From Caldicellulosiruptor hydrothermalis 108 (GTDB taxonomy: Bacteria; Bacillota; Thermoanaerobacteria; Caldicellulosiruptorales; Caldicellulosiruptoraceae): a DNA stretch of 64,000 nucleotides. The translations under genes were made by a program, and so were the position numbers. This document shows, piece by piece, positions 5,603 to 27,801 of the stretch (position 1 is its first letter; every line of letters begins with the position of its first letter). The DNA is taken from NCBI RefSeq assembly GCF_000166355.1, contig NC_014652.1:2466501-2530500 (forward strand). The letters run 5' to 3'. The notes under the pieces are model-generated. The model saw nothing but the letters and a program-made list of their open reading frames with translations. It was not told where the DNA came from and did not search any database.

Positions 5603-6994
5603 CTATTTTTTAACTAAAATAATATACTCCCATGGTTCTAATTTAAATACTTCCTTTCCGTTAATAATTATTGTCTCATCCCTTCTTCCGAAAGTCCTGA
5701 ATTTTCCTTTATACAAATCAAAATTTATTGCTACCTTGGTCATCTTGTTCTGCAGATTAAATATACTTATTACAATGTTGTCACCTTTCTCCCTCACAAA
5801 AGCTAAAACATTGCTATCGTTAGTAGTTATAAACTTTGCTTCTCCACCATAGCTCCCATTCCAAAGAGCTGGATTATCTTTCTTTAAGTTAATCAGCTGT
5901 TTATAAAAAGTATGAAGTTTTATATTACTCCAATCTATCTCATCTTTGTCAAAAAACTTTAACCTTTTTTCTAAGGGAATTTCTTGCCCACTATAAATTA
6001 AAGGTATACCAGGCAGGGTGAACGTCAACACCGCAAAAGTTTTATATGCATCTCCTAATCGTTCAATTTCTGTTCCATTCCAAGAATTTTCGTCATGGTT
6101 TGTTATAAAAAGAAGCGGAAACGTCCCTTTTGGATATGAAGGATATATTCTTTTGTAGTAATCTATTATACTTTCAGCTGTGTCATTGCCTTTAGCAATG
6201 TTATTAAAAAGATTATACAATTTCCACCCATAATTTGCATCAAATGCTTTATCAAGTAATCTAATATTTTGGTCATCTTCAGCAAGCATAAAAATTGGTT
6301 TAATTTTTTGCAATTTCTCTCGAGCTTCTTCCCAAAAATCTAACGGAACTCCCCCTGCATAATCGCATCTAAATCCATCTATATCCGTGTTTTTTATCCA
6401 AAAAATCATCGCATCTATCATAGCTTTTCTAAGTTCCAGGTTATCGTAATTTAGTTCAGCAACATCTGTCCAATTCGTCCCTGGAGGTGAAATAACGTTG
6501 CCATTCTCATCCTGCGCATACCAGCTTTTATGTTCCATCCAAACATTGTCCCATCCAGTATGATTTGCTACCCAATCTAAAATGACTTTAAATCCCATCG
6601 AGTGGGCTTTTTTCACAAACGCCTTAAAATCGTTCATTGTTCCTAATTCAGAATTTACTTCAGTATAATTTTTAACCGAATAATACGAACCCAAGGATCC
6701 TAAACGGTTTATCTCAGAAATCGGATGTATTGGCATAAGCCATAATACCTTTACACCCATTTCTTTAAGGCGGGATAAATGTTTTTCAAATGCCTTTATC
6801 GTTCCTTCCTTTGTATATTGTCTCCAATTAACCTCATAAATAGTTGCATCTTTTATCCACTCAATTTTTTCTAACCTTTTTTCAGCAATTGTTAGATACT
6901 CAGTATCTATTCTCTTTTCATATATAAAGTAACCAATACCTCCAACCAAAACGACAACTATCAAAACATAAATCACTACTATAACCTTCTTCAT
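5603..6994 (-). CDS. Membrane-anchored GH13 alpha-amylase-family hydrolase
   Basis: 463 residues. Residues 4-24 form a hydrophobic segment with no lipobox, so it is probably a signal anchor holding the enzyme outside the membrane. The rest is a GH13 TIM barrel: DWVANHTGWDN (region I, from D140), GFRCDYAGG (region II, nucleophile D211), LAEDD (region III, acid/base E239) and TNHDEN (region IV, D301). A short C-terminal beta domain follows; there is no extra binding module. It is the last gene of the Opp operon, 15 bp after the small membrane protein, and has AGGAGTG before the ATG. Likely role: cleaving alpha-1,4 bonds of glucan fragments at the cell surface before import. Exact specificity is unknown. 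Confidence 0.88.
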   Translation of the reverse strand: MKKVIVVIYVLIVVVLVGGIGYFIYEKRIDTEYLTIAEKRLEKIEWIKDATIYEVNWRQYTKEGTIKAFEKHLSRLKEMGVKVLWLMPIHPISEINRLGSLGSYYSVKNYTEVNSELGTMNDFKAFVKKAHSMGFKVILDWVANHTGWDNVWMEHKSWYAQDENGNVISPPGTNWTDVAELNYDNLELRKAMIDAMIFWIKNTDIDGFRCDYAGGVPLDFWEEAREKLQKIKPIFMLAEDDQNIRLLDKAFDANYGWKLYNLFNNIAKGNDTAESIIDYYKRIYPSYPKGTFPLLFITNHDENSWNGTEIERLGDAYKTFAVLTFTLPGIPLIYSGQEIPLEKRLKFFDKDEIDWSNIKLHTFYKQLINLKKDNPALWNGSYGGEAKFITTNDSNVLAFVREKGDNIVISIFNLQNKMTKVAINFDLYKGKFRTFGRRDETIIINGKEVFKLEPWEYIILVKK

Positions 6995-7261: not shown

Positions 7262-8251
7262 TTAAGAATAAAGATGACATGCAACATATCTATTTCCCCG
7301 CTTTTTTAATTCAGGTTCATAGTCCGCACACTTTTCCATAGCATACGGGCATCGAGGATGAAATCTACAACCCTTTGGTGGTTTGGTTGGATCTGGTAAA
7401 TCTATACTCTTCAATGCAAGCATTTTCTTTTCTCTTGCTAATTTCGGATTAGGCACAGGTACAGCTGAAATTAATGCTTGAAGATACGGATGTTTAGGAT
7501 CTCCAATAGCTTCCTGAACATTACCCACTTCCACTATTTTACCTAAATACATAACTACAATTCTTCCGTTTTGAGCAATATAACGAGCAGTCGACAAATC
7601 ATGTGTTATGTATATAAAAGAAACACCCATTTCTCTGTTTAATCTCGCCATTAAATTCAATATCGATACTCTTAAAGACACATCTACCATCGATACCGGC
7701 TCATCAGCAACAATAATTTTGGGGTTTAAAGAAATTGCTCTTGCTAACAATATTCGCTGGCGTTGTCCTCCTGATAACTGGTGGGGGTATTTCTCTAAAT
7801 ATTGCTCCGGTGCACTTAATTCTACCCTTTCTAATAACTCCATAACCTTATGCTTTGCTTCTGTTCGATTTTTTACAATGCCTTTTTCTATTAAAGGATC
7901 TGCCATTGACTGGAAAATTGTTCTTTTCGGATTCAACGCTGCAAAAGAATCCTGTTGAACCATCTGTATGCTCTCTCTATATTCGTTTCTTCGTTTTTTA
8001 TCAAGCCTATTTAATTCAATTCCTTGATAATATAACTTGCCATTGTTAGGGTGTTGCAAGCCTGTTATGACTTTTCCCAATGTGGTTTTACCGCATCCAC
8101 TTTCTCCAACTACTGCTATTATCTCTCCCTTGTTCACCTCAAGACTCACATCTACTAAAGCTCCTACAAGAGAAGGTGGTTTAAAAAGCCCTACTCTTTT
8201 TTCAAAGTATACACTTACATTTTCCAACTTCAACAATGGAGTGTTATTCAT
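7262..8251 (-). CDS. Opp/Dpp-type ABC transporter ATP-binding protein (OppF position)
   Basis: 329 residues. Walker A GESGCGKTT, signature LSGGQRQR, Walker B IIVADEP and the H-loop THD are intact. The C-terminal oligopeptide/dipeptide extension contains the family cysteines (PPKGCRFHPRCPYAMEKC), which in related proteins ligate a 4Fe-4S cluster. Fourth cytoplasmic component pair of the five-gene importer, start ATG behind GAGGTG, 9 bp after oppD. Although the family is named for peptides, many thermophile Opp systems carry oligosaccharides, and the surrounding GH genes make sugar import more likely here. Confidence 0.92.
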   Translation of the reverse strand: MNNTPLLKLENVSVYFEKRVGLFKPPSLVGALVDVSLEVNKGEIIAVVGESGCGKTTLGKVITGLQHPNNGKLYYQGIELNRLDKKRRNEYRESIQMVQQDSFAALNPKRTIFQSMADPLIEKGIVKNRTEAKHKVMELLERVELSAPEQYLEKYPHQLSGGQRQRILLARAISLNPKIIVADEPVSMVDVSLRVSILNLMARLNREMGVSFIYITHDLSTARYIAQNGRIVVMYLGKIVEVGNVQEAIGDPKHPYLQALISAVPVPNPKLAREKKMLALKSIDLPDPTKPPKGCRFHPRCPYAMEKCADYEPELKKRGNRYVACHLYS

Positions 8252-8260
8252 TTTTTCACC

Positions 8261-9253
8261 TCAATTCACTAAGTTTTGAGACAAATTTTCAGAATATAAG
8301 TGGCATTCTACAAACTCGTTTATTTCAAAGTTAGTTCTCGCTGGCCTTTCTTGCCTACATTTATCAAATGCTTTAAAACAGCGCGGATGAAAAGCACAAC
8401 CTTTAGGTAAATCCATCAAATTTGGAGGAGTTCCCATAATTGATTTAACATCTTTCAAATCACCTACTAAGGATGGTGCAGCTTTTATCAAACTTTGTGT
8501 GTAAGGATGTTTTGGTCTCTCAAAAATATCAAAAACATTAGCACTCTCCACAATCCTTCCTGCATACATTACTCCCACTTGGTCTGCTACCTTTGCTACA
8601 ATCCCTATGTCATGCGTCAACAATAACATTGTAATTCCTTTTTCTTTGTTTATGCTTTTTAGTATTTCGAAAATATAAGCTTGTGTTATAACATCTAACG
8701 CAGTAGTCGGTTCATCTAAAATAATTACTTCAGGATCAAGTAGTAGTGAAAAAGCTATAATCACCCTCTGTTTCATACCTCCTGACAATTCATGAGGAAA
8801 AGATTTCAAAACTCTATCAGGATTAAGCCTAACGTACTCAAGAAGTTCTTTTATCTTTTTTAAACTCTCTTTTGTATCAATATAACCTTTGTGCTCTTTT
8901 AAAGTTTCTAACATTTGTTCTTGAATTGTCATAACTGGGTTCAAAGAATTTTGAGCTGCTTGAAAGATCATTGCTACAGATTCCCATCTATACTTGCGCA
9001 GTTTTTCTTTATTGAATTGTAATATGTCTTCACCTTTAAAAAATATTTTCCCTGCACTAATTATTCCTGGATGGTTAACCAGGCCCAATAAAGCATACGC
9101 TAAGGTAGATTTTCCACTTCCACTCTCTCCTACCAAAGCAGTTATTTTTCCTTTTTCAATATTGAAATCTACATCGTTAACCGCTTTGATCACACCATTT
9201 CTCATTCTAAATTCAATTGTTAAGCCCCGAATTTCAATTATATTTTCGCCCAT
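8261..9253 (-). CDS. Opp/Dpp-type ABC transporter ATP-binding protein (OppD position)
   Basis: 330 residues. Walker A GESGSGKST, signature LSGGMKQR, Walker B VIILDEP, H-loop LLTHD, and the C-terminal cysteine extension (LPKGCAFHPRCFKAFDKC). It pairs with the next gene to form the heterodimeric ATPase of the importer. Start ATG with GGAGG upstream, 17 bp after oppC. The LMDLPKGC tail marks it as the D-type rather than F-type subunit. Confidence 0.92.
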   Translation of the reverse strand: MGENIIEIRGLTIEFRMRNGVIKAVNDVDFNIEKGKITALVGESGSGKSTLAYALLGLVNHPGIISAGKIFFKGEDILQFNKEKLRKYRWESVAMIFQAAQNSLNPVMTIQEQMLETLKEHKGYIDTKESLKKIKELLEYVRLNPDRVLKSFPHELSGGMKQRVIIAFSLLLDPEVIILDEPTTALDVITQAYIFEILKSINKEKGITMLLLTHDIGIVAKVADQVGVMYAGRIVESANVFDIFERPKHPYTQSLIKAAPSLVGDLKDVKSIMGTPPNLMDLPKGCAFHPRCFKAFDKCRQERPARTNFEINEFVECHLYSENLSQNLVN

Positions 9254-9270
9254 TTTATAATACCTCCGTT

Positions 9271-10134
9271 TTATGACCCTTTTTGTGATTTAATGCGAGG
9301 ATTGAATGCCTCATCAAGTCCGTTTGCTAAGAAAATACATCCAAGTTGAAAAAGTGCTAAACATACAATTGGACTCAGCAAATATATATAAGCTCTTGGG
9401 TTGAAAATACCACCTGTATTTTGTACAGCCAAGCTAATCATCATACCCCAATTTGTAGGTGAATACGGAGCAAGCCCTAACATCATCAAACCTACACTTG
9501 CATTTACAGCACTCTGTATTATGAAGATAAAATTGACAGCTATATAAGAAATAATATTTGGCATTATTTCTTTAAAAATAATATGCATTGTACTTAAATT
9601 CATAATTCGGCAAGCAACAATAAACTCACTATGCTTTAAGGAAAGAATCTGCGAACGAATTGCTCGCGCAAGCCCACCCCATGAAAAAAGACTCAAAATA
9701 AGAGAAAATACAAGTGGATTACTAACTTTTATAAGGGTGGATATCACAATCAAAATCGGAAATTGTGGAATTGTAAGAAAGAGATTAGTTATAAACATTA
9801 TTATTGAATCTACCCATTTACCTATAAGACCTGATAATGCACCTATAAAAAAGCCTATTAATATAGTAAAAGTAGCTGTTAAAATTCCTACGCTTAAAAC
9901 TTCTTGTGAACCATATACAAGCTGAACAAAGGTGTCTCGACCAGCAAAATCAGTACCCAAAATATGTTTCCATGAAGGCATTTGATACCTTTCTGAAAAT
10001 CTTATAGTCAAGTCCAGTTTTAAAACTCGCGGTCCTATCGTTGCCATTAAAATAAAAAACATCAAAATAACAAAACCTGTCATAGCTTTTCTATTAACTT
10101 TTATTTCTTCCCATAATTCTTTTACATATCTCAT
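9271..10134 (-). CDS. Opp-type ABC transporter permease (OppC)
   Basis: 287 residues. N-terminal OppC_N segment with one transmembrane helix (about 15-38) followed by a periplasm-exposed stretch (LGTDFAGRDTF, typical of OppC/DppC) and five further helices of the BPD transport domain with the EAA-type loop near FIVACRIMNLS. ATG behind GGAGTGA, 9 bp after oppB. Forms the membrane channel with OppB. Confidence 0.92.
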   Translation of the reverse strand: MRYVKELWEEIKVNRKAMTGFVILMFFILMATIGPRVLKLDLTIRFSERYQMPSWKHILGTDFAGRDTFVQLVYGSQEVLSVGILTATFTILIGFFIGALSGLIGKWVDSIIMFITNLFLTIPQFPILIVISTLIKVSNPLVFSLILSLFSWGGLARAIRSQILSLKHSEFIVACRIMNLSTMHIIFKEIMPNIISYIAVNFIFIIQSAVNASVGLMMLGLAPYSPTNWGMMISLAVQNTGGIFNPRAYIYLLSPIVCLALFQLGCIFLANGLDEAFNPRIKSQKGS

Positions 10135-10143
10135 TTTTATTTC

Positions 10144-11142
10144 TCACTCCTCTATGCTAACTCTCGGATCAAGTTTACTGTATATTAAGTCAGCAATTAA
10201 ATTAGCGATAATTACTGCTGTGGCAGTGACTAATAATAAACCTTGCATCAAGGTGTAGTCCCTTTGGGAGCTTGCCTGAGCTATATAATATCCCATTCCC
10301 GGATATGAAAATATATTTTCAATAAGAGCAGAACCACTAATCATAAAACCAAAATTCATTGCTAATGAAGTTATTAAAGGTAATAATGCATTTCTTCTTA
10401 CATAATTTTTCATTATTGTCCTATCTGATAAACCTCGAGCATATGCAGCATTTACATAGTCTTCACCTAAAACGCTTATAGCACTCCCTTTCATCGCAAG
10501 TGCCCATCCACCTATAGAAGTTATAACATAAGTAAGAATTGGTAAAAACGCGTGTTTGAGTACACTCCAAAGAAATGGTAAATTAAACCCTGGTGTCACA
10601 TCAATATCATAAGCCCCATTATAAGGAAACCAATTGAGATTATATGCAAATATTACAAGTAATAATATGGCAATAATAAAGCCTGGAACTGCACTTGTGA
10701 TAGTCGCATATATAGAAACTATCGGTTCTAAAATAGAGTTCCTTTTCCATGCCATTCTTGTACCTAATTGAATACCTATCAAAAAGCTAATAAGCAAGGA
10801 AATACTTAGCACAAATACTGTCCAGGGTAATGCTTTTGCTACAATTTCATTTACCGTTACAGTTTGATAAATCATTGATGTTCCTAAATTCCCATGTAAC
10901 AATTCATTTACGTATCTAATTAACTGTTTATGCAACGGCTCTCGTGGATCATAATTTACCATTTTAGCTACTCTTTCATAAGCTGCTTCCAATGTAATTC
11001 CATTAGTTTGTGCTAACTGTCTCGCTAAGCCATCAATTGCACTTCCAGGAGTTAGTCTTAACAAGAAAAATGTCAATAAGACTGCACATAAAACTGTTGT
11101 AAACGACATAAGAACTTTTTTAAAAACAGCCTTAATTTTCAT
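10144..11142 (-). CDS. Opp-type ABC transporter permease (OppB)
   Basis: 332 residues from the ATG at 11142; GAGGG lies 9 nt upstream, so I prefer it over an upstream GTG. One N-terminal helix (about 10-30), an extracellular segment with GNLGTS, and the BPD transport domain with an EAA-like loop (YVNAAYARGLSDRTI). The C-terminus ends in LDPRVSIEE, matching the OppB/DppB LDPRI/V ending. Partner of OppC. Confidence 0.92.
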   Translation of the reverse strand: MKIKAVFKKVLMSFTTVLCAVLLTFFLLRLTPGSAIDGLARQLAQTNGITLEAAYERVAKMVNYDPREPLHKQLIRYVNELLHGNLGTSMIYQTVTVNEIVAKALPWTVFVLSISLLISFLIGIQLGTRMAWKRNSILEPIVSIYATITSAVPGFIIAILLLVIFAYNLNWFPYNGAYDIDVTPGFNLPFLWSVLKHAFLPILTYVITSIGGWALAMKGSAISVLGEDYVNAAYARGLSDRTIMKNYVRRNALLPLITSLAMNFGFMISGSALIENIFSYPGMGYYIAQASSQRDYTLMQGLLLVTATAVIIANLIADLIYSKLDPRVSIEE

Positions 11143-11189
11143 CACCACTTTCCCTCTTTCTTAAACTAAATTCAATAAATCTGCAAAGA

Positions 11190-11291: not shown

Positions 11292-13181
11292 TTATTTCGG
11301 CTGATATTCTCCATTAACTAATGACATGTACCCTCCAAAACCAAGATTCAGTATAGCTATTCTTCGTTTGTCTTCTTTGTTAGTTGGCAGAGGCATATTT
11401 CTATTATATTTCGCAAACTGATCTGCCATTGGTAATTTTCCACCAAAAGTCTTGGTATTAATCCAAACCCCTGTCGTATTCTGATACAATGCGATATTGA
11501 ACGCATTCTCATTAATAGCATATACTAAATCATTGACCATCTTCATTCTCTTTTTCAGATCATAAGTGTATGGATATTCATCAAGTATCTTAGCAACATC
11601 TATCTCTTTACCATCAGGTCCTTTTAATTTTAAAGTAAGTTTCCCTGTCTTTGGATCTCTTGGCAGTCCATTAATAGTAGCTATCCATCCAAACGTCTGA
11701 CTAAGATAGAAATAAGGATCTGAAGAATACCATGTAATATCTACCCAGTCAGTACCTATATCATAAGCTCCTTCTTGTACCTTTTGCCAATAAGTGCTTC
11801 CTTCAACTATTTTAACTTTAGTTGGTAAACCGAACGCTGTTAACTGTTCTGCAACAGCTTGAGAATAATTGATAACAGCTTCCCATCCTGCTGCTACGCC
11901 AATGTAAAACTCATATTTCTTTCCATTTGGATCTACCCAAATACCATCTGCCCCTTTTCTCCATCCAATTTCTCTTAACAATTGCTCTGCCTTTTTAGGA
12001 TTGTAAGAATAATCTGTCATTTTTTTCTGAGTATCAACTGAAACCCACTTATTTAACTCTGACTGAGCTATTCCTAAAGAAGAATACTTTTTATACTCCG
12101 TCGCATAATAATTTGCAAATTCTCTTATCTTTGTTCTATCAAGTGCATAAACTAATGCCTGTCTGAATTTTACATTATTAAAAGGATACTTTCTGACATT
12201 CAAAAGCAAACCCGCACAAGCTGGATCAAACATCTTGTAATGTACTAAATCTTTATTAGCCCTTAAGATCGACTCTAAAACATCTTTCGGTTGGGTATAG
12301 TTGAAGTTTTCTAATTTCCCTGCTCTCAACATAGCATATTGTGATGATAAGTCATTTACTTGATAGAATACAACCTTTTCAAATGTAACATTTTTAGCAT
12401 CCCAATAATCTTTATTTTTTACAAGAACTAATTGAGTATCAGACACTGCATAGAACTTAAACGGACCAGTACCAATAGGTTTTTTAGGATTATACTTCAA
12501 AAATTGTTGCCAATTATTGTCCAGCTGTTTCCTTATACTATCAGTAATTTCATATCCAAAAGGTCCTCGTTTTGCAGGATCATTTGTTTTCTTAGCGCTG
12601 CTGAGAATTTTGGCAGCATTATCAACATATTTTTTGTAAATGTGATAAGGAATTGTGCCTTGCCTATCTTGAGCAAGGAATATTATTCTAAGTTCGGGGA
12701 AAGGAGCTGGTTCATGCCAATTAAATACTACTGTATAATCGTCAGGCGTTTCAATACTATCTAATCTTCTTGCAACTTCAACTCCATTGTTTAAGATATA
12801 ATAAGCCCACACATCCTTACTTGTAAACTTTTGCCCGTCATGCCATTTTACATTTTTTCTCAAGTGCACTATTGTTTTGTTGCCTTTATGCTCATATGAT
12901 TGGGCTAATCTATTAAATATTTGGTCAGTAGACCTTACAATAAGGAATAATCCTTCAAACATAAACCTTTCACCATAGTAACCTACACCGCCCGACGCAA
13001 AAACGTTACCCTGATACAAAGGTGGTTTTGGCCAATTATCAAGTGCCCTGAAAACTTTCTCGGTATTGTTGAGTTTTGTCGCTGCATTTCCAAAATCAAA
13101 TGCCAAAAAACTGGTAGCAATAAAACTGAGCACAAGAAACACTACAAAAGCTTTTTTGAAATACGACTTGAAACTACCCAT
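11292..13181 (-). CDS. Opp-type extracellular solute-binding protein, not a lipoprotein
   Basis: 629 residues of the SBP_bac_5 (family 5) class. An N-terminal signal peptide (basic FKSYFKK, hydrophobic core about 11-29, likely cleaved near GNA-A at 32-34) lacks the lipobox cysteine expected for Gram-positive binding proteins. Family features include LRKNVKWHDGQKFTSKDV near 105-122 and IGTGPFKF near 235. Length over 600 fits oligosaccharide-binding members, which are larger than the dipeptide ones. First transporter gene, behind the GH15-like gene and a 64-bp gap with a hairpin; AAAGGAGG precedes the ATG. Ligand is inferred to be an alpha-glucan oligosaccharide from its neighbours, not from its residues. 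Confidence 0.9.
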   Translation of the reverse strand: MGSFKSYFKKAFVVFLVLSFIATSFLAFDFGNAATKLNNTEKVFRALDNWPKPPLYQGNVFASGGVGYYGERFMFEGLFLIVRSTDQIFNRLAQSYEHKGNKTIVHLRKNVKWHDGQKFTSKDVWAYYILNNGVEVARRLDSIETPDDYTVVFNWHEPAPFPELRIIFLAQDRQGTIPYHIYKKYVDNAAKILSSAKKTNDPAKRGPFGYEITDSIRKQLDNNWQQFLKYNPKKPIGTGPFKFYAVSDTQLVLVKNKDYWDAKNVTFEKVVFYQVNDLSSQYAMLRAGKLENFNYTQPKDVLESILRANKDLVHYKMFDPACAGLLLNVRKYPFNNVKFRQALVYALDRTKIREFANYYATEYKKYSSLGIAQSELNKWVSVDTQKKMTDYSYNPKKAEQLLREIGWRKGADGIWVDPNGKKYEFYIGVAAGWEAVINYSQAVAEQLTAFGLPTKVKIVEGSTYWQKVQEGAYDIGTDWVDITWYSSDPYFYLSQTFGWIATINGLPRDPKTGKLTLKLKGPDGKEIDVAKILDEYPYTYDLKKRMKMVNDLVYAINENAFNIALYQNTTGVWINTKTFGGKLPMADQFAKYNRNMPLPTNKEDKRRIAILNLGFGGYMSLVNGEYQPK

Positions 13182-13220: not shown

Positions 13221-13256
13221 ATAAAATTTGATAGCTATTCAGCTATCAAATTTTAT
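13221..13256 (-). promoter_or_regulatory. 16-bp perfect inverted repeat at the GH15-like/oppA junction
   Basis: Positions 13221-13236 and 13241-13256 are exact complements with a 4-nt loop. The right arm overlaps the last codons and stop (13246) of the GH15-like gene. The stem is AT-rich and has no following T-tract, so it may be an mRNA processing or stability element rather than a full terminator. Confidence 0.55.
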
Positions 13257-15150
13257 CGCCCGATAATTGCTTAGCAGAAAATTCTTTGTAATAAGGATAT
13301 GCCAAAGCAGAGACCATTTCGGCACATGCCCACGTTAGCGGATTTATATAACATACATGTTCATACTTAGCATCTACAGCCTCAGGCATAAGTCCAAAAT
13401 TATTTGTATGCTTTACAAGCCATTCTATTTTTTTGATATATTCAGGAATATCACCTACAAAATAATTAAATTGGGCACATGCGGCGGTATTAAAAATCCA
13501 TGCACCATGATGATAACTTTGCTGGGAATATCCTATTCCATCTCCGTGAAATGAAGCGTTTTTTAGCAAGTAGCTGTTATTATGCAACATCTTCTCATTA
13601 TAATAACCGTACAAAGGCGAAAAATATTGAGGAGTATCATACCTTTTCACAACACAATTGGTGGTAAGTGAAAAACCATAGTAATAATACTTATAATTCT
13701 TGTCCCACATAGTTTCGATACCTTCAGAAATATCTTCAATAAGAGAATCTATCTTACTTTTGAGATTAACATCGGTTGGATCTATAACCTTTAACAGTCT
13801 TCTTGCATTTATTAATCCACCTAAAATGAACATATTTGTTGAAGTAATATACGCTTGCCCGTATACTCCTTCATTTACGCCCCCTTCAGGACCAATTAAA
13901 TTGTTATATCCTTTGTAAGATTCACAACAATGAATAATTTCTTCTAATTTGTCTTTCTTTATAAGTAATTCTCCTGTTAAATCAAAATAATATTTAATCA
14001 AACTCAAATAATATCCAATTGAGTCCAATTGATGCTCCACATAGTTGTTTGCTCCCTCTGAGGGTTTACAATAACAGTCATAACGTTGATAAAACTCCCC
14101 ATTTTTCTTAAATTCTAAATTGCTCAAAAAGTTAAATATCTTTTTTGCTTCTTCAAAGAGCTCAGAATAAAGAAAAGCTTTAGCTACCATCAACGCATCT
14201 CTTGGATAAAAGCATGGACCCAAATGTGTAAAGTAATGTCCTGTAATATCGGCTGGAATAAAACCATTTAAATTAACACTTTTTATAGCTAATAAATTAC
14301 GGTAATAAATCTTTTTCCATTTCTCATTGGCATATTTGTTATAGTCTATTACTTTTGAAGTTTGATCTATGAAACTGCTATAAATCACATTTCCATATTC
14401 TTGGAGATTAATATTTCTAATTCTTTGAAGAAATTTTAATCCTTCTTCAATTTTTTTACACGGAACAATAAACCATCTAAATAATATCTCCTCATCTGGC
14501 GGTATGTTGCATTGACTCCCAATTGCAGCCGAAATGCCAAATTCACTTTTTAGATGATCTTTTTGATTATATTCTTTTTGTAATATTTTTTGAAAACCCG
14601 CAAAATCAAAGTTTATATGTTCAACTGCCAATACATGAAAATCACTTTTTCTATCAAGTCCGATAATTACATATTTTTCTTTTACTCCGCTATCCCAAAT
14701 CAAACAATCGTAGTCCTTATTGTATTCCAATAAACCTTTTTTTGCATTGTTAAAAACAATATAGGCAAAAATATCTATACAGATATCTTTGGAATTATTA
14801 TTTCTTATTAATTCTTCAATTACTATACCATTATCAAGAGCATAGCAAAAACTTTTCCTTTCAATGCCTTTGTATTCTTTATATTTTGAATAAACCTTAT
14901 ATAAATCTTCCCACCCTTCCTCAACTATTTCAATTTCCTTTGGCGCGTGATGCAAATCATATGTAATATTTGAATATAACAACTCTTCTTCGTTTCTTAT
15001 CAGGGTTATACCTTTTTTTATTAAATCATACGTATAATCATTGTAAAAAAGATGCTGAATACCTCTGCTAAAACCTTCTGAAAAACTTTCTGAGTTGGAA
15101 TATAGCGCCGTAAAATTATCAAAACCTACTGTCGTTACACCTTTATACAA
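13246..15150 (-). CDS. Divergent GH15-like (alpha/alpha)6-barrel protein, probable oligosaccharide hydrolase
   Basis: 634 residues, no signal peptide, cytoplasmic. An N-terminal beta-rich domain (about 1-260) precedes a helical barrel. Motifs recur in the order of the GH15 at 3650: YPRDAL (315-320, like WGRDAA), QLDSIGYYL (374-382, like QIDETASVV), a GPEGGVNEG segment with E427 where the general acid should be, and LMPEAVD with E590 where the general base should be. Overall resemblance is low, so family membership is tentative and a relative of GH15, or another (alpha/alpha)6 family, is possible. TTG start, 6 nt after GAGGAGGT. First gene of the Opp operon under a LacI operator; likely hydrolyses the imported sugar. 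Confidence 0.65.
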   Translation of the reverse strand: MYKGVTTVGFDNFTALYSNSESFSEGFSRGIQHLFYNDYTYDLIKKGITLIRNEEELLYSNITYDLHHAPKEIEIVEEGWEDLYKVYSKYKEYKGIERKSFCYALDNGIVIEELIRNNNSKDICIDIFAYIVFNNAKKGLLEYNKDYDCLIWDSGVKEKYVIIGLDRKSDFHVLAVEHINFDFAGFQKILQKEYNQKDHLKSEFGISAAIGSQCNIPPDEEILFRWFIVPCKKIEEGLKFLQRIRNINLQEYGNVIYSSFIDQTSKVIDYNKYANEKWKKIYYRNLLAIKSVNLNGFIPADITGHYFTHLGPCFYPRDALMVAKAFLYSELFEEAKKIFNFLSNLEFKKNGEFYQRYDCYCKPSEGANNYVEHQLDSIGYYLSLIKYYFDLTGELLIKKDKLEEIIHCCESYKGYNNLIGPEGGVNEGVYGQAYITSTNMFILGGLINARRLLKVIDPTDVNLKSKIDSLIEDISEGIETMWDKNYKYYYYGFSLTTNCVVKRYDTPQYFSPLYGYYNEKMLHNNSYLLKNASFHGDGIGYSQQSYHHGAWIFNTAACAQFNYFVGDIPEYIKKIEWLVKHTNNFGLMPEAVDAKYEHVCYINPLTWACAEMVSALAYPYYKEFSAKQLSGDKI

Positions 15151-15207
15151 CTGGTTACCTCCTCATTTGTGAAATTAGCACTAATTTGAGCACCACAATC
15201 AATTTGA

Positions 15208-15219
15208 TTAATCGCTTAA
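15208..15219. promoter_or_regulatory. LacI-type operator 1 (TTAATCGCTTAA)
   Basis: A near-perfect palindrome TTAA-TCGC-TTAA with a central CG step, 15 nt downstream of the -10 box of the Opp operon promoter (about +8 to +19). Matching sites occur at 15369-15380 and 27753-27764. Proposed binding site of the adjacent LacI-family protein. Confidence 0.7.
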
Positions 15220-15233
15220 CCTAACTAATTATT

Positions 15234-15261
15234 ATTATATACCAACTTTATCAAAAGTCAA
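15234..15261 (-). promoter_or_regulatory. Promoter of the GH15-like/Opp/GH13 operon
   Basis: On the minus strand TTGACT (15256-15261), a 16-nt spacer and TATAAT (15234-15239), about 80 bp upstream of the TTG start, with operator 1 immediately downstream. Confidence 0.7.
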
Positions 15262-15352: not shown

Positions 15353-15370
15353 TTGGTTGGTTGGTTGGTT
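15353..15370. repeat. TTGG tetranucleotide repeat next to operator 2
   Basis: Four and a half direct copies of TTGG, ending inside operator 2, in the 5' leader of the regulator gene. Such a tract can vary in length by replication slippage. Confidence 0.75.
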
Positions 15371-15380
15371 AAGTGATTAA
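15369..15380. promoter_or_regulatory. LacI-type operator 2 (TTAAGTGATTAA)
   Basis: Reads TTAATCACTTAA on the minus strand, differing by one base from operator 1. It lies about 36 nt after the lacI -10 box and 30 nt before the start codon, a roadblock/autoregulation position. Confidence 0.65.
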
Positions 15381-15409
15381 ATACTTAAAGGCATTTTGAG
15401 AGGTGGAAA

Positions 15410-16432
15410 ATGAAAAAGAAAATAACAATCAAAGATATTGCTGAGTTAGCAGGGGTTTCTACCGCCACTGTATCTTATGTAATAAATAATGTAGGCCGAA
15501 TAAACGAAGAAACGAGAAAAAGAATTTTAAAAATTATTGAGGAGGTAGGTTATACACCCAATGTTACTGCACGTAATTTAGCCAAACAAAAAAATAATGT
15601 AATTGGAATTTTGGTATCAGTCTTTAAAGATGAAAAAGCTACTGTTTTGACAGACAATCCTTTTTTTATTGAATTTTTAGCAAGTGCTCATTATAAAGCT
15701 GTGGAACATGGCTACAGCATTTTAATAACAGACTACAGTGATAAAAATAACATCAAAAAACTAATAAACTCAAAAGCAGTTTCAGGATTAATTTGTTTAG
15801 GTAAATTTGACAACAAACTATTTCAAACTTTGAAAGAAGCTTATGTTCCTATCGTATTAATAGACCATGATTATGTTTATGATAACTTCTATTATATCTA
15901 TAGCGATGATAAAAAAGGAGCATATTTAGCTACAGAATATTTAATAAAGAGAAACCATCAGAAAATTGGCTTAATTTGTGGTGAAATTAAATCGAGTGTT
16001 ATTCACCAGTGGCGATATGAAGGTTTTTGCAAGGCGTTAAATGACTATGAATTGGAAATTAACAAAGATTACATTTTCGAAACTAATCTGAATTATCGAA
16101 GTGGAATAAGCTTAGCAGAAAAAATATTGCCGTTGATAGGTAAAGTAACAGCATTTTTTGTTATTTCAGATATTGTAACAATGGGACTAATTAAAGGATT
16201 ATCTAAGTATAATGTTAGGGTCCCAGATGACCTTTCTATTGTCAGTTATGACAATCTTCAATCATCTAAATATTTCATACCTGAACTTACAACAGTAAAT
16301 CAAAACATTAAATTAAAGGCTGAAATGTCTATTGATTTAATTGTAAACCATTATCACAATTCAAATGCCTCATCAAACATCTTTGTTCTGCCTGTAGATA
16401 TTGTCGAAGGTAACTCTGTAAAAATAATTTAG
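15410..16432 (+). CDS. LacI/GalR-family transcriptional regulator
   Basis: 340 residues. Residues 4-55 are the LacI helix-turn-helix and hinge (TIKDIAELAGVSTATVSYVIN, then RILKIIEEVGYTPN). Residues 60-340 are a periplasmic-binding-protein-like sugar sensor dimer domain. ATG with GAGAGGTGG upstream. It is divergent from the Opp operon, and its leader and the two sugar-degradation promoters share the TTAAYCRCTTAA palindrome, so it is likely the repressor of the whole locus, relieved by an imported alpha-gluco-oligosaccharide. The effector is not known. Confidence 0.93.
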   Translation: MKKKITIKDIAELAGVSTATVSYVINNVGRINEETRKRILKIIEEVGYTPNVTARNLAKQKNNVIGILVSVFKDEKATVLTDNPFFIEFLASAHYKAVEHGYSILITDYSDKNNIKKLINSKAVSGLICLGKFDNKLFQTLKEAYVPIVLIDHDYVYDNFYYIYSDDKKGAYLATEYLIKRNHQKIGLICGEIKSSVIHQWRYEGFCKALNDYELEINKDYIFETNLNYRSGISLAEKILPLIGKVTAFFVISDIVTMGLIKGLSKYNVRVPDDLSIVSYDNLQSSKYFIPELTTVNQNIKLKAEMSIDLIVNHYHNSNASSNIFVLPVDIVEGNSVKII

Positions 16433-16509: not shown

Positions 16510-19041
16510 TTACCATCCAATATTACCACTACCTTTGTTGAGCGTAAAGTTGCTTCCCGCAGAATTGAGAAGACCGCCATATGTAGCACCAAAAATAACC
16601 ACAGAATTAAATGTTGCACTTCCTCGTGCATTACTTGCTATTTCTATGCCATAGGTTCCAGCCCCATTAATGTAAACGTTGTTAAACGATAAATTAGAAC
16701 CAACAGAATACGGCCCTTCAATAAATATCCCTTGGTAAGGAGTGTCATATATTTCTATACTTTGAATCCCTATAGTTGCATTGATATCTTGCTGAGCTGC
16801 ATTTATCCATATAGCTCCCCGGGCATAATTAAGATTCCATTCATAAGAACTTCCTCTTTCAATAGTGTTGTATCTTACAGTGGTCGTTCCGCTAAATGCA
16901 ACACAACTATAATTTGAACTTACTAAGATACCTCCACCAAAAGCTATAATGTCTTTTACAATGTTATATTCAACAACATTGTTTGCACCACCATATATTG
17001 CAATACCATTTGCAAGCCACGGACATTCTATTGTATTGTATTTAACAGTATTATTTTGTGAAGGATTGTTACTTATCCATGTTGCTGACCATATTGCAAT
17101 TGCATCGTCACCTGTATTCCTAATATGACATTGTTGAACAGTCGAATTTTTAGTACCTCCACACAAATTTATTCCATCAGCTAAAGTATTTCTAATCCTG
17201 CATCCTAATATTTGAATTCCATCAGTAGGATAGTTTACCCATATTCCGCACTTTACGTGTTCAATCCATATATTTTGAATAATTGATCCAGTCCCCGCAT
17301 TTCCATCAAACGCTGTTTCAGGTGCACTGTCAATACGTTGTGTTGTGTTACCATAAATAGCAAAATCATAAAATCTACAATTATTGCCATTTAAAGCAAA
17401 AGCAGCACCAGAGCCACGCAAGACAGAATACCACATTCCTGCACCTTTTATTGTCACATTATCTACAGTTATTGGTCCCCCACTTAGATCAAAGACACCA
17501 CTTGGTATCCACACTATTTTACCTTGAGCTTTTGCATCATTAATACAATTTATAATTGCTTGTTTATCATCAGTGCCATCATTAGGAGTAGCACCATAAG
17601 CAGTTATCGAGAGTGAATTAGAGGGCTGACTTATAGGCGCTGGAACATTTTCAAATTCAACAAAATCTATTATAAAATATGCTGCATTATCACCAGAATC
17701 TTTTTGTAATTTAATCTTTGTACCTGTAGAATAGGTGGTAGAGAACATTAATCGTACCTCATCAAAGAAATGATGCGCTTTGCCATCTGCTGGATTATTT
17801 GTCCAAGGATACTCTCCATATACCCACGCATATTTGGAAGTTAATTGAATATCTTGATAGTGAACATTATTTACATAAATACTTAAAGTTGCATTTAACC
17901 CTTGTCCATCTACGCTATCCGGAATGCAATATCGAATGACCATTGCATTAGCCGGCTCTGTAAGTGTAAACTCAATATATTGACCAGTATTGTCTAATTT
18001 TACTGCTCTTCTCCCAGATGCCTCTGATTGAATGTCTGTCCTATAAAGCACACTATACTGCATTATTGAAGCATTTGTTGAAGCATATTCAGCTTCGTGC
18101 TTAATAAAAGGCAAATTAGCTCCTCTGTCTTTTGGTTTAACTGTAATATAATCGATATTTATATTTCCACTATCAGTTGATTCATACTTTATTGTAATCG
18201 CATTGCTGCCCGCATTTAGCAACACAAATTCTGAAACATCAGCCCATGTATCCCAATTTGATAAATTTGGAAGTCTAAGTTGCTTTATTTTTCTGCCATT
18301 GACATAAAGAGAGACTGTTTTAATACTTCCAGTTGCATTAGCATACCTTATTGTCAATGTGTACTCTGTTTTCGTAAGAACCATAACATTAAATGTAGTT
18401 GTAGCACCCACAATCCAATAACCATCAACAAATCCCGTCCCCGAATAACCTGTATGGTCAAAATTCACTTTTGCTCCACCAGATAATATCGCATTCTCCG
18501 CTTCGTACTTTCCAGTAGATGAGGAAACATCATAATATACCTCAATTTCAGCAATTTGACCACCATTAGCTCCATTATTAGAATATATTTTTAGCCTCAC
18601 GTATCTGTAACTTTTATTGCTAAAAGTAATTGTAACTACATTCCCTGTATTAGGATCAAAATAGTATGATGCCCTTGCTACTATAGTCGAATATGAAGAA
18701 TTGTCGTTACTACCTAATATTTCTATATCTTGTGTTCTACCAGTGCTCCATGAAGGATTTAGTTTAAGAACTATTCTGTTAAATGTTTGTTGAGTTCCTA
18801 AATCGACAGTTAAAAGATTAGGATATGTGTTGCTCGAGGCTTCCCAATAAGTCTGGATATTGCCGTCATTAGCGTTTTGAGGTACAAATCCTTGAACATA
18901 ACTATTTGCTGTTATACTTTTGTTTTTTGCTAAATTTACTGAATCATCTGCTTTTACTTTTGGAACGTACAAACCAAGCAATAAAAATGCAATCATAACA
19001 AATGAAGTAATAACTGATAAAAGTTTTTTTAAGTTGACCAT
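16510..19041 (-). CDS. Secreted GH87 alpha-1,3-glucanase/mycodextranase-family enzyme
   Basis: 843 residues from the ATG at 19041 (a TTG one codon earlier is also possible; AGGAGG lies upstream). Signal peptide about 1-32. Then, in numbering from the TTG: an F5/8-type discoidin domain (36-172), a CBM6/35-like beta-sandwich opening with YEAENA (180-303), a second EAE-starting beta-sandwich (313-465), and a right-handed parallel beta-helix (477-844) opening with AYGATPNDGTDD, a pectate-lyase-like fold. The arrangement IRNTLADG (D623) and NTGDDA (D646, D647) matches the aspartates I associate with GH87 catalysis. No SLH or dockerin, so it is released or held only by its binding modules. GH87 enzymes cut alpha-1,3-glucan or nigeran. 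No TTAAYCRCTTAA site is seen just upstream. Confidence 0.85.
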   Translation of the reverse strand: MVNLKKLLSVITSFVMIAFLLLGLYVPKVKADDSVNLAKNKSITANSYVQGFVPQNANDGNIQTYWEASSNTYPNLLTVDLGTQQTFNRIVLKLNPSWSTGRTQDIEILGSNDNSSYSTIVARASYYFDPNTGNVVTITFSNKSYRYVRLKIYSNNGANGGQIAEIEVYYDVSSSTGKYEAENAILSGGAKVNFDHTGYSGTGFVDGYWIVGATTTFNVMVLTKTEYTLTIRYANATGSIKTVSLYVNGRKIKQLRLPNLSNWDTWADVSEFVLLNAGSNAITIKYESTDSGNINIDYITVKPKDRGANLPFIKHEAEYASTNASIMQYSVLYRTDIQSEASGRRAVKLDNTGQYIEFTLTEPANAMVIRYCIPDSVDGQGLNATLSIYVNNVHYQDIQLTSKYAWVYGEYPWTNNPADGKAHHFFDEVRLMFSTTYSTGTKIKLQKDSGDNAAYFIIDFVEFENVPAPISQPSNSLSITAYGATPNDGTDDKQAIINCINDAKAQGKIVWIPSGVFDLSGGPITVDNVTIKGAGMWYSVLRGSGAAFALNGNNCRFYDFAIYGNTTQRIDSAPETAFDGNAGTGSIIQNIWIEHVKCGIWVNYPTDGIQILGCRIRNTLADGINLCGGTKNSTVQQCHIRNTGDDAIAIWSATWISNNPSQNNTVKYNTIECPWLANGIAIYGGANNVVEYNIVKDIIAFGGGILVSSNYSCVAFSGTTTVRYNTIERGSSYEWNLNYARGAIWINAAQQDINATIGIQSIEIYDTPYQGIFIEGPYSVGSNLSFNNVYINGAGTYGIEIASNARGSATFNSVVIFGATYGGLLNSAGSNFTLNKGSGNIGW

Positions 19042-19116
19042 CAAACAAAACCTCCTCTTTTTTATATGAGTACTTTACTTTATATTTTAGTGTTTGTATA
19101 GAAGAATAAAATCCTG

Positions 19117-19398: not shown

Positions 19399-21513
19399 TC
19401 AAAACTTAAATACTTTAGTAGATTCCTGTAGTTCTCCTGTAACAGCATTCAACTTCTCAGTCATACGATATAATTCTTCTACAGATGCTACCTGCTCTTC
19501 TATTGCAGCATAAATTTCTTCGGAAGAAGCAGCAGTTTGTTCAGAAATTAAGGAAATATTCTTGATAGACTCGATAATTATATTTTTTTCATTATTTATA
19601 GTTATTACAGACTCATTAACTTTTTCAATATCCAATAATAATTTATCCATTTCGTTTTTTATATTTAAAAAAGCTTTTGAGACATGTTCAACCACATTGT
19701 ATTGTTCCTTTACTATTTCTTCAAAGACACCTTTCACTTGTTGGGTTTTTTTAGATTGTTCGATTATCTTTTTAAGCATTGTTTCTGCCTCACGAGTTGC
19801 AGTTTTAGACTGATCAGCAAGCTTTCTAATTTCAGACGCAACAACAGCAAATCCACGACCCATATCGCCAGCTTTTGCAGCCTCTATCGAAGCATTCAAT
19901 GCTAATAATTTTGTTTGTTCTGTTATAGAATTTAAAACCTTTATAACCTTTTCAATTGAGTGGATATTAGCAATCAAACTCTCTAAATTTATCATCATGT
20001 CATTGCTTGCCCGCACAGTATTTTGAGTAACACCATTGAGAGAAGAAAAAGCACTTTCACCTTTTTCGGTTATTGAATTTATAAAACAGCTATAATCTTT
20101 CATTTTATTAATTGAGTGAGCAATTATTTCAATCTTTTCACCAAATCTATTTACTATTGTATAAATATTTGAAATCTCCTTTGCTTGTTCATTAGCACCA
20201 TCTGTGATGTGTTCAACTACTTTAGAGATTTCTGTAGCAGCAGAAGATGTTTCAGCAGACACAGCCTTTATCGCTGAGACACTTTCCACTACTCTCTCGA
20301 TTACTTTGACAACATCTATTATCAATTTCTTTAGTTTTTCAATCATTTCATTAAAACTATCTACTAATATACCTATTTCATCGTTCCTCTTTATACTAAC
20401 TTTTACACTAAGATCACCTTTTTGTGTTAAAGAAAAAGTCTTAGCTACTTTCTTTATATCATTTGCAATTCTTAAAGCAAATAAACTTCCAACACCAATA
20501 GCAGCAATTGTAAAAATAATTGTTGCTATTATAACCATCATTAATAATACGCGGGTTGAATTAGTTATAGAACTTAGTGCCACAATACCAACTATATACC
20601 AGCCACTATTATACAGTTTATTAAATGTAATCAAAAATTCTCTCTCTTCGTAACTGGTTGTTAACGAGCCAGATTTCACTCCCTTTTGTCCTAATTCTAA
20701 AATTCTCTTTACAAAATTAGTCTCTTTATTCGGAATGCTTTTAAATTGGTCTGACCATTTAGAAGGTACAATCATATCTCCTTCTGGTGAAATTGCCAGC
20801 ATATATCCTCCATTTTGAGCCAAATGAGAATTTTGTAAAGCTTCCTTAAACCAATCTAAACTAACATCAAGCAAGATAACACCAATTGTCCTTAAAGTCA
20901 GTGTATCTTTCAATGCAATAGCAACTGAAAAAGCATAAGGAGGTATTTCATTTACCCCGCTTTTATTGATTTTCTCGTCAAAATCTTTAAAATGATCTTT
21001 TAAAATTATTGGTTCATCTGACTGTATCACTGCTTGATACCAAGTCGATGACTTGAGATTTTCAAAATTTACCTCTTCTAATGACATAATTGGATATGTA
21101 AGAGAATTATCTTTTCCTACCAAAATATAACCACTTGAAAACATTGGATTGGCTATCATAATATTTTGAAAGAGTTTGTTGGCTTCTTCTTTCAACTTGT
21201 AAATATCCACTTTCCCTTGCATATCCTGTCGAGCTTGAGAGTAATAATTTTGAATAGCTTCACTTTGCATTATTTCAGCAATTTTATTCTTTGCAGTACT
21301 AAAAATATTCTCAAAATAATCTGAGGAGGCTTGAGTGGTTATTAAATATGACCTTTTAGTTTCTTTTATTAAAGAATTTACAGATAGCGAAATAGACAAG
21401 GTAGAAACTAAAATAACAGGTATAAAAACAACCAAAAAAACAAGCAGTGTCAATTTATTGGTTATACTCATTTTTCTCATTACTCTAAAAAATACATTTT
21501 CTTTTCCATCCAT
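19399..21513 (-). CDS. Methyl-accepting chemotaxis protein with Cache-type sensor
   Basis: 704 residues from the ATG at 21513 (AGAGGTG 12 nt upstream; the longer reading uses a TTG without a good site). TM1 about residues 20-45, an extracellular region of roughly 270 residues with double-Cache character ([37 protein letters not shown]), TM2 near 325-350, HAMP, and a cytoplasmic coiled coil with the invariant hairpin tip ([28 protein letters not shown] split by the turn). Located between two GH87 enzymes, so its ligand is plausibly an alpha-glucan fragment. It follows the giant GH87 gene across a terminator-like hairpin. Confidence 0.92.
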
Positions 21514-21551
21514 GATTGCATTTTTCACCTCTTTGTCGCACAAAATCTTAT

Positions 21552-21598: not shown

Positions 21599-24500
21599 TT
21601 AATTAGCTAAATTAGCAATAGTTAAAAATCGAACAAGCATAACTGCTGCCTCTGCCCTCGTTGCGAAATCTTTCGGTGCTAATAACTCAAAGGTCTTTCC
21701 TTTTATTAAACCAAGTTGGATTGCAGTTGATACATATTGTTTTGCCCAGGGGCTTATATAATAGCTATCAGCAAACCTTGCCAAATTCTCTTGAGTATTA
21801 ATTAATTTAAATTTGTTATTCAATACACTCAATGTCCTTATTATCATCGCTACCATTTGTTCACGAGTAATGTAATCATTAGGCCTAAATGTTCCGTCGT
21901 TAAAGCCATTTACTAGGCCCAAATTAACTGCTGTGTTTATAGAATTTGTATACCAATCTTTCTCATCAATATCTTTAAATTTTATCTTATCTTTCGAATT
22001 TATCCATAAGCCTAATGCTCTGACTAACATTGTTACAAATTCTGCTCTTGTTATGTTCCTTTGAGGTGCAAATTCATTTTGTCTTATGCCATTTACTATT
22101 AGCTTATTGTTCAAAAGCTCAATTTCTTTAGCAGCCCAATGTCCATTAATATCGTTAAAACTCTTATTGTTTTTTACTACAACAAATATTCCTATCGTAT
22201 TACCAAAAATTCTTACATTCATCTTGTTATCCGATATATCAAATATGCTTGGTGTAGGAATTATTAAGTTATTATACACATCAATAAATACTGTCGAGAG
22301 TTTCTCTTTAGTAATTTGCTTTTCAAGAGCTATATTCTTAGTAATTGTAAATAACCCAATTCTATCTACATTGATCGTTTTATCAGCAGAAGTGAGGTAA
22401 ATCTCAAAATTTATTGGTTTCTCTATTGCTTCTAATCCAGAGCTTTTTAGGATTTTGTTCACTATATCAATAATTTTTTGTTCCGGTTTTGTAATTTTAA
22501 TGTTTAAAACGAGATTATTGGATGCCATAGATTTAAGAATATTTTTCTTTAAATCCTCAATAAAATTCACAGGGATTTCAATGCTCGTGTTCTGGTACTT
22601 CACCTCTATTAAAGTACTTGCATTTTCTACTTTTGCTAAATTAAAGGCATTTTCTGGCAATGTTAATGTATTATTGAAGCCATACTTTTCTACATCTAAT
22701 GATATCTTCTGTACCTTATTCTTTATTGCTTCTTCAATAAGATTTACCATTTCTTTTTCTACTATTTTTTCTTCCTTTTCACCTTCAAACCTTACATTAT
22801 TCTCCTTTTCTTCATTTGCCACGTTATTTTTTTGTTCAAAGTAAAAAGTTTGAACAGTATTTCCACTATCCCCAACTTCTTTTGGTATTCTCACCAATAA
22901 GGTAAGTGGTTGAGGAGATAAATTGCCAGTATTGTCAATAGCATATAGTTTAAAAAGATACTCTTGACCACTTGTTAGATTTTTAATTGTAAAGTTTTTA
23001 TAAGTACTTTTCAATGTCACCATGGAATCATTCCATATAAGTTTATAATAAGTTACCAAACCATTATCAACTGCTGCTGGAAATTGCAGAGTTACACTAT
23101 TTGAGGTTACCTCTTTTACGCTCAGCTTGCCTCCTTCTGCCCATGATGGAAAAACCATATCGTTTGTTAGTAAAGGTGTAAAATATCGTGAACCATTGAA
23201 AAATTCATTTATTTTAGTATTTAAAATTGTATTATTTCTGAATATTCCTGATCCTTTTGCAGTACTTAAAATATTTATCCCCCAAGTTCCAGTTTGATTT
23301 ATAATATTATTTTCAAAAGTAAAGTTGTTTAAACTGTTTGACCCATTTATTGATATACCTTGATAAGTACTGTCCAAAATTTCATTGCTTCTCACAATAA
23401 TTTCTCCGTTTATATCCATACCAGCACAGTTTACCCATATTGCTCCAAAATCTTGATTGAAATTCCATTCGCGTCCTCCGCATCTTATCAATCTATTTCG
23501 TTCAATGTACAAAAATCCCTCAAAGGGATAAGGATGATAATCTATTTTCGAACTAATATTTATTCCACCGCCAAAAGCAATAGTATCAACTAATAAATTG
23601 TCAGACACAATATTGTTTTTACCTCCATAAATTCCTATATTGCTTGCTAACCATGGCATTTCAATAGTGTTAAATCTTACTATATTGCCTTCAACATTAT
23701 GGGTAACGTCATCTGGATTATTTGGATCTTTTTGAGCCCATAGTGCAATTCCATCATCCCCAGTATATCTTATATGAGTATTTTCAATCATAGAATATTT
23801 GGTACCATAGGTTAAGTTAATACCATCTGCATATGTGTTTCTTATTCTACAACCCGAAATGTAAACATTATTCCCATTGTTTATCCAAATCCCTACCTTG
23901 GAATGTTCAATCCAAAGATTCTGGATAGTAATATTTTTTATAGTAGTAGCATTATAATCACTTTCAATTGCTGCCGGATGAGAGTCAATTCTGGTAGTCT
24001 CTTCGCCTTCGATAGATAAATCATATATTCCCACATTATCTCCTACAATTAAAAATGTTGCATATTTACCTTTCAGTACTGTGTACCACATACCTGCTCC
24101 GCGAATAACCACATTGTCTAACGCAATTTTTTCACTATCAAAGTTAAATGTACCTTCTGGAATCCATACACCTTTATGCTGTGATTTTGCAGTTTCAATG
24201 CAATTAACCAGTGCTTGAGTATCATCAATATTATCATTTGGGATTGCTCCGAAATCTAATATTGATATATAGTTTTCAGGCATTGAATAGGGCTTAGGAA
24301 CAATCTCAGTTTCTATAAAATCTATATAATAGTATTCCGCTGAACAGTTTTCGTCCTTTTTAAGTGTAATAACTGTTCCAGCTGGCATATAATTATCCAA
24401 AATAACGCGAACCTCTTCAAAAAATCTGTGGGGATTACCTTGTTTAGGATCATCAGACCATGGAAATACTCCATATACCCAACTATGTTCAGAAGACAGT

Positions 24501-27622: not shown

Positions 27623-27752
27623 TATACACATACCTCCTCCCTTTATATATCTCTCCCTTTGATAAGTCAAAATTTTAATATTTAGTGAAGTGATATTAAT
27701 CTTGCATATGTCACTTCCTTTCATATTAAATCTGAATATAATACAGATTAGG

Positions 27753-27764
27753 TTAACCGCTTAA
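27753..27764. promoter_or_regulatory. LacI-type operator 3 (TTAACCGCTTAA)
   Basis: One base different from operator 1 (TTAATCGCTTAA), placed 8 nt after the -10 box of the giant GH87 promoter, roughly +2 to +13. It links this gene, 12 kb from the regulator, to the same control. Confidence 0.7.
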
Positions 27765-27772
27765 CTATCTAA

Positions 27773-27801
27773 ATTATATTAATACTATTTTAAATTGTCA
27801 A
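27773..27801 (-). promoter_or_regulatory. Consensus promoter of the giant GH87 gene
   Basis: On the minus strand a perfect TTGACA (27796-27801), 17-nt spacer and perfect TATAAT (27773-27778). This is the strongest-looking promoter in the window, in keeping with a heavily expressed surface protein that needs tight repression. The leader to the ATG at 27622 is about 145 nt. Confidence 0.82.

Follow-up and report, generated by a model that had tools for sequence, protein, structure and literature searches.

The DNA analyzed here raises the question of what a very divergent GH15-like glycoside hydrolase does at the head of a sugar import operon that lies near genes for GH87 alpha-1,3-glucanases. 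By "the window" we mean the whole stretch that was analyzed, 64,000 nucleotides of the Caldicellulosiruptor hydrothermalis 108 genome. A preliminary description had placed the gene at 13246-15150 and named it the first gene of the operon. We found that this span is exact and represents one complete open reading frame, and that the strand, which the description did not give, is minus. The gene reads from 15150 to 13246 and starts with TTG, preceded by AGGAGG; its ortholog in the sister-genus genome G012 also starts with TTG. The product, referred to below as the target, contains no N-terminal hydrophobic segment or signal peptide (best 17-residue KD window, 0.3) and is therefore predicted to be cytoplasmic. 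Its position at the head of the operon was borne out by the same-strand genes on its 3' side, which code for a solute-binding protein, two permeases, two ATPases, and a GH13 enzyme. The cassette contains the following features.

15410 to 16432, plus strand: LacI-family regulator, divergent from the target gene (domain and family searches)
13246 to 15150, minus strand: target, a GH15-like enzyme of 634 amino acids, predicted cytoplasmic (open reading frame list, alignment, profile comparison)
11292 to 13181, minus strand: family-5 extracellular solute-binding protein (domain search, structure-sequence comparison)
10144 to 11148, minus strand: ABC permease, OppB type (family search)
9271 to 10134, minus strand: ABC permease, OppC type (family search)
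8261 to 9253, minus strand: ABC ATPase, OppD type (family search)
7262 to 8251, minus strand: second ABC ATPase, OppF type (translation read by eye)
5603 to 6994, minus strand: GH13 enzyme with an N-terminal membrane anchor, the last cassette gene in common with G012 (domain search, comparison with G012)

The closest solved relatives of the solute-binding protein are named as chitin-oligosaccharide and mannoside binders, and the GH13 enzyme is closest to the alpha-amylase entry 4gkl. Beyond the GH13 gene lies a standard GH15 gene (TIGR01577, E 3.1e-112). We end the cassette at the GH13 gene because this standard GH15 gene has its own promoter-like site (5580-5552) and because G012 carries the 56% identical relative elsewhere, at C5:74661.

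The preliminary description held that the target retains little of GH15 beyond a few motifs, and this is accurate at the level of the single sequence. Pfam returned zero families for the target at E values up to 10, and a phmmer search of the PDB with its sequence found nothing relevant. TIGR01577 matched at 4.1e-8 and 32.3 bits, far below its cut-off of 820.7, and the target falls below every curated cut-off. Comparing profiles over the catalytic domain gave a different picture. Using hhalign, GH15 profiles matched the profile of the target family with probabilities of 99.5-99.8% and E values of 2.9e-22 to 1.6e-29, the best values coming from a set of ten GH15 proteins. In control comparisons the probabilities were 30% for MGH1-like proteins, 0.7% for the binding protein, and 0.2% for GH65. 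The preliminary description had named GH65 among the families to be compared, and the last value, obtained with a small set of three GH65 proteins of the host genus, shows no profile similarity of the target to GH65.

Curated models recognized parts of the family when we searched its fifteen aligned members (G764 was omitted because it is split across two contigs). TIGR01577 matched 12 of the 15 and the glucan glucosidase model TIGR01535 matched eight (best 3e-12). PF00723 was recognized in five relatives, the best at 3.3e-7, with the target itself unrecognized. The archaeal trehalase model NF041084 matched three members (best 1.8e-5), and the GH125 Pfam model matched one (4.9e-4). GH125-type mannosidases were also the best profile matches in the PDB, at E 0.0012 across 64 positions only. 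In a phylogenetic tree, the 15 members formed one group separate from the ten GH15 proteins with 100/100 support, a topology for which the program warned of long branches. Profile comparison thus points to GH15 ancestry for the target. Its family, in which the base, the Arg-Asp pair, and a following Asp are kept, appears either to branch deeply within GH15 or to be a sister group to it. The branch is unnamed and uncharacterized, and the substrate specificity of the target is a prediction. A literature search of titles and the opening of abstracts returned no description of the enzyme, which does not by itself prove that it is unpublished.

We compared the motif residues of the target to those of GH15 proteins. 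All of the motifs named in the preliminary description (R317-D318-A319, Q374-L375-D376, E427, and P589-E590) were found. R317, D318, D376, and E590 are invariant in 15/15 relatives and E427 is kept in 14, so these residues are not chance occurrences. E590 aligns with the Glu that serves GH15 enzymes as general base in their C-terminal PE region, and R317-D318 aligns with R285-D286 of the window's standard GH15. The Asp of this pair has a role in binding the -1 glucose in GH15 enzymes (PMC12446779). E427 sits about two columns away from the GH15 acid Glu in the alpha5-alpha6 loop in both alignments, because the acid-bearing loop differs in length; it is the probable general acid. The original assignment as a divergent, cytoplasmic, GH15-like enzyme therefore stands with respect to the Arg-Asp pair and the C-terminal base, while the exact register of E427 as the probable acid is not fixed by alignment or the low-confidence models. 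Compared with GH15 oligosaccharide amylases and glucoamylases (TIGR01577, PF00723), the target shares the Arg-Asp pair, the following Asp, the GL-PE base motif, the overall length, and the full-domain profile match of 99.8%. It differs in being only about 14% identical, in having no WEE acid motif, and in the loss throughout its family of an Arg, an Asp, and a Trp in the last third (R532, D536, and W550 of the standard GH15). The one member that departs at E427 (L074:1243-3117) has Gly at this position and Asp at the position of E422; this protein may be inactive or may rely on another acid.

Structure prediction and comparison, which the preliminary description had also proposed, gave a partial answer. 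The full-length model had a pLDDT of 39.5 and the catalytic-domain model 50.3, each built from two sequences. Because confidence is low, no active-site claim rests on these models. Foldseek returned zero matches for the model at E <= 0.001. With VIA, the catalytic-domain model scored Z 10-13 against numerous (alpha/alpha)6 chains, among which GH94, GH15, GH125, GH63, and invertase chains were mixed. An (alpha/alpha)6-like fold fits, but the weak model does not separate the families. The GH15 isomaltose glucohydrolase KfIG from Kribbella flavida (5z3a) was among the best matches (Z 12.5, 289 aligned residues, rmsd 5.0). GH94, GH63, and GH125 chains score about equally, so this match shows only that the model is (alpha/alpha)6-like. 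The KfIG gene presumably lies beside a gene for a cycloalternan-degrading GH31, an arrangement also found in the Photobacterium locus described below.

The preliminary description had paired the target with GH87 products by proximity alone. We examined the intergenic regions and found candidate regulatory sites common to the two loci.

15206 to 15221, plus strand: operator O1, GATTAATCGCTTAACC, identical at the ortholog locus of G012 (upstream comparison, pattern scan)
15234 to 15261, minus strand: promoter-like site of the target operon, TTGACT-16-TATAAT, 11/12 (promoter scan); O1 begins 12 nt past it
15367 to 15382, minus strand: O2, a weaker operator-like site with two mismatches to the pattern, adjoining the LacI gene (pattern scan)
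16510 to 19044, minus strand: second GH87, secreted, downstream of the SLH-GH87 gene on the same strand (domain search)
19399 to 21543, minus strand: methyl-accepting chemotaxis-like protein, its gene flanked by those for the two GH87 enzymes (translation read by eye)
21599 to 27724, minus strand: SLH-anchored GH87 alpha-1,3-glucanase (CatAgl D1/D2) with Ricin-type, CBM35, fn3, and SLH domains (domain search)
27751 to 27766, plus strand: SLH-GH87 operator, GGTTAACCGCTTAACT, upstream of the gene (13/16 match to O1)
27773 to 27801, minus strand: SLH-GH87 promoter-like site, TTGACA-17-TATAAT, 12/12 (promoter scan); the operator begins 6 nt past it

Over 2.77 Mb, the 12-bp core TTAANCGNTTAA is found only three times, and the target operon and the SLH-GH87 gene are each preceded by one copy. 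The third site (536302) is flanked by another LacI gene and a sugar ABC operon and was set aside as part of that system. Within the window, three sites (O1, O2, and the SLH-GH87 site) have up to three mismatches to O1, compared to 0.48 expected, and as many appeared in 1 of 100 shuffles. We derived a wider operator pattern from the O1 and SLH-GH87 sites after inspecting nine upstream regions, so both match it exactly by construction; at up to two mismatches it matched 10 times in the genome, against 15 for a reversed control. Since the pattern was built from two sites, we give weight only to how often the core occurs, to the count based on O1, and to where the promoters lie. In G012, which keeps the whole cassette from the LacI gene to the GH13 gene, the operator also follows a TTGACT-TATAAT site, and the same intergenic region contains a two-mismatch site as well. 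The second GH87 gene is possibly on the same transcript as the SLH-GH87 gene, and the chemotaxis-receptor-like protein perhaps senses glucan.

Among the genomes searched, the target and GH87 were found together only in the window's genome. GH87 (PF22816) was found in 2/13 genomes of the host's family, the window's genome (G000) and G006. G006 has GH87 and does not have the target enzyme; G012 has the target, the cassette, and the operator, and no GH87 was detected in it with PF22816. The cassette can therefore exist without GH87. Searches of the 13 target-carrying Bacteroidota genomes and the Photobacterium record also gave no GH87 match, which does not prove absence. What holds of the original pairing is thus the shared LacI-type operator and promoter layout. 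The link between target and GH87 does not appear to be general, and in the window's genome both seem to have come under one operator type. The same genome contains another GH87 locus (G000:C1, about 84,000-99,800) with sugar ABC genes, two GH65 genes, a beta-phosphoglucomutase gene, an SLH protein gene, and a gene for a 1361-residue GH87. This third GH87 locus does not contain the core at up to one mismatch. Judged by open reading frame size, G006 repeats the gene order of the two-GH65/GH87 locus. In vitro, alpha-1,3-oligoglucans are produced by a GH65 enzyme from C. hydrothermalis (PMC8537180).

The target branch is rare. Among 12 other genomes of the host's family, G012 alone has more than a distant GH15 match, and its protein is the closest ortholog (89% identical). 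A first single-sequence scan of genome contigs yielded almost nothing. In profile searches, the window's genome was the only one of 398 sampled genomes of its own phylum with a match at E <= 1e-20, and strong matches (E < 1e-85) were found in 13/395 Bacteroidota genomes, including a Bacteroidetes MAG whose protein is 27% identical to the target. Weak Bacteroidota matches, at E 1.8e-9 to 7.2e-4 in 14 of 27 genomes, were left out of the family. An IMG/VR search with query A1 and a phage search with the Photobacterium protein each gave no match.

The relative from Photobacterium sp. DA100 (37.8% identity over 97%) is followed by genes for a GH31 enzyme and a ROK kinase, and the locus also contains a GH13 of the oligo-1,6-glucosidase/phosphotrehalase kind. 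The best solved match of this GH31, in its catalytic part, is Lmo2446 (4kmq, 516 bits), which entry 5f7u names as a cycloalternan-forming enzyme. The 7wj9 enzyme, which we take to be a GH31 specific for nigero-oligosaccharides, is a weak relative (86 bits against 516). The gene content of the Photobacterium locus suggests alpha-glucan use. The GH31 (L022:17853-20876) is 1007 residues long, and about 440 of its N-terminal residues matched no GH31 structure. Identity to the target is 21-28% among the Bacteroidota members, whose N-termini look signal-peptide-like by eye. At two of their loci (L032 and L069) the neighbors are GH3 with GH16 or GH5, a beta-glucan-like setting. A few genes from the member in the GH3/GH5 locus, L069:14700-16913 codes for a 737-residue protein that matches GH15 weakly (6.7e-7).

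We consider it probable that the target, a member of a deep side branch of GH15, works in the cytoplasm as an inverting, exo-acting alpha-glucosidase and that LacI controls it together with a surface alpha-1,3-glucanase. Once an inducing sugar had released LacI, extracellular alpha-1,3-glucan would be cut by the SLH-anchored GH87 and probably also by the second GH87, and alpha-1,4 stretches would be trimmed by the membrane-anchored GH13. Oligosaccharides would enter through the family-5 ABC transporter, and the target would remove glucose from the non-reducing end with E427 as the acid, E590 as the base, and R317-D318 holding the -1 glucose. The data show the GH15 ancestry, the conserved residues, the make-up of the cassette, and the arrangement of operators and promoters; from these we infer repression by the adjacent LacI, hydrolysis, inversion, exo action, and the alpha-1,3 (nigero-) preference. 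An alpha-glucan substrate is suggested by the GH13 in both cassettes and by the cycloalternan-type GH31 and ROK kinase in Photobacterium. The alpha-1,3 linkage is suggested by the operator shared with GH87, by the genome's GH65/beta-phosphoglucomutase/GH87 locus, and by the C. hydrothermalis GH65 activity noted above. Nigerose or nigero-oligosaccharides, which the preliminary description had put forward as an example, are plausible substrates, and nigero-oligosaccharides are the likeliest candidate. We counted several observations against this reading: the complete cassette of G012 with no detected GH87, the lack of GH87 matches in the 13 Bacteroidota genomes and the Photobacterium record (which does not prove absence), the outcome of the reversed control for the wider operator pattern, the beta-glucan-type neighbors in Bacteroidota, the similarity of the binding protein to chito- and manno-oligosaccharide binders, the weak relationship of 7wj9 to the Photobacterium GH31, and the position of E427 off the acid column together with its loss in one relative. 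The more specific proposal, that the target founds a new GH15 subfamily devoted to intracellular hydrolysis of alpha-1,3-linked (nigero-) oligosaccharides, as the hydrolytic counterpart of the genome's apparent GH65 phosphorolytic route, is possible and is offered tentatively.

A rather unlikely reading, though the strongest competitor, is that the target is an ordinary exo-glucosidase for maltodextrin or isomaltose (alpha-1,4 or alpha-1,6) in a GH13-type cassette, and that the GH87 genes are later neighbors under the same repressor. The GH13 cassette of G012 with no detected GH87 would fit this, as would the alpha-amylase 4gkl as closest entry to the cassette's GH13 and the oligo-1,6-glucosidase/phosphotrehalase-kind GH13 in Photobacterium. 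Likewise, the substrates listed for GH15 enzymes in PMC12446779 are trehalose, isomaltose, and malto- and isomalto-oligosaccharides, and the activities given there do not include alpha-1,3 links. However, the genome already encodes a standard, oligosaccharide amylase-type GH15 with its own promoter-like site, the target family has lost that enzyme's R532, D536, and W550, and the operator is common to GH87.

It is improbable that the substrate lies outside the alpha-glucans and is, for example, a heteroglycan or beta-linked oligosaccharide. The GH3, GH16, and GH5 neighbors at L032 and L069 and the named relatives of the family-5 binding protein favor such a substrate, but the cytoplasmic members at 89 and 38% identity adjoin GH13 or GH31 alpha-glucan enzymes, and the Bacteroidota members may differ in role because of their low identity and signal-peptide-like N-termini. 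We give very little credence to a trehalase-like or other disaccharide-specific GH15 unconnected to polysaccharide breakdown. The three members matched by NF041084 speak for it, but TIGR01535 (glucan glucosidase) and TIGR01577 (oligosaccharide amylase) match more members with better best E-values, and the operon encodes an oligosaccharide importer and an anchored GH13. A retaining enzyme of the dextran dextrinase type was rejected. Dextran dextrinase (9ju0), a retaining GH15 homolog, gave a weak profile match to the target family (E 0.0034), but its cluster has Gly before the C-terminal Glu (PMC12446779), and this Gly-Glu dyad is Pro-Glu in 15/15 members here.

The proposed alpha-glucosidase was also compared to known systems for alpha-1,3-linked glucans. 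The GH65 alpha-1,3-oligoglucan and nigerose phosphorylases of Lachnoclostridium phytofermentans, encoded with GH87, LacI, and ABC genes, have a similar neighborhood and probable substrate, and their cluster resembles the two-GH65/GH87 locus of the window's genome (PMC9061262). ChGP, a GH65 enzyme from C. hydrothermalis, belongs to the activity class sought for the target (PMC8537180). Unlike the target, these phosphorylases belong to GH65. LlGH31_u1 is a bacterial alpha-1,3-glucosidase encoded beside ABC and LacI genes (PMC9061262), but it is a GH31 enzyme whereas the target is GH15-like. If the proposal is correct, GH15 would gain an uncharacterized branch and a thermophilic source of an alpha-1,3-acting enzyme. 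It would also allow a clean test, since a single genome appears to exploit the same glucan through two separately controlled loci, one phosphorolytic (GH65, beta-phosphoglucomutase, GH87) and one hydrolytic.

Elsewhere in the window, two neighboring open reading frames at 46408-49813 resemble SpoIID and SpoIIE by eye; to our knowledge, the host genus is non-sporulating. Two tandem thymidylate-kinase-like open reading frames at 60440-61896 are flanked by a small HD-like open reading frame and a Ppx/GppA-like one, also judged by eye.
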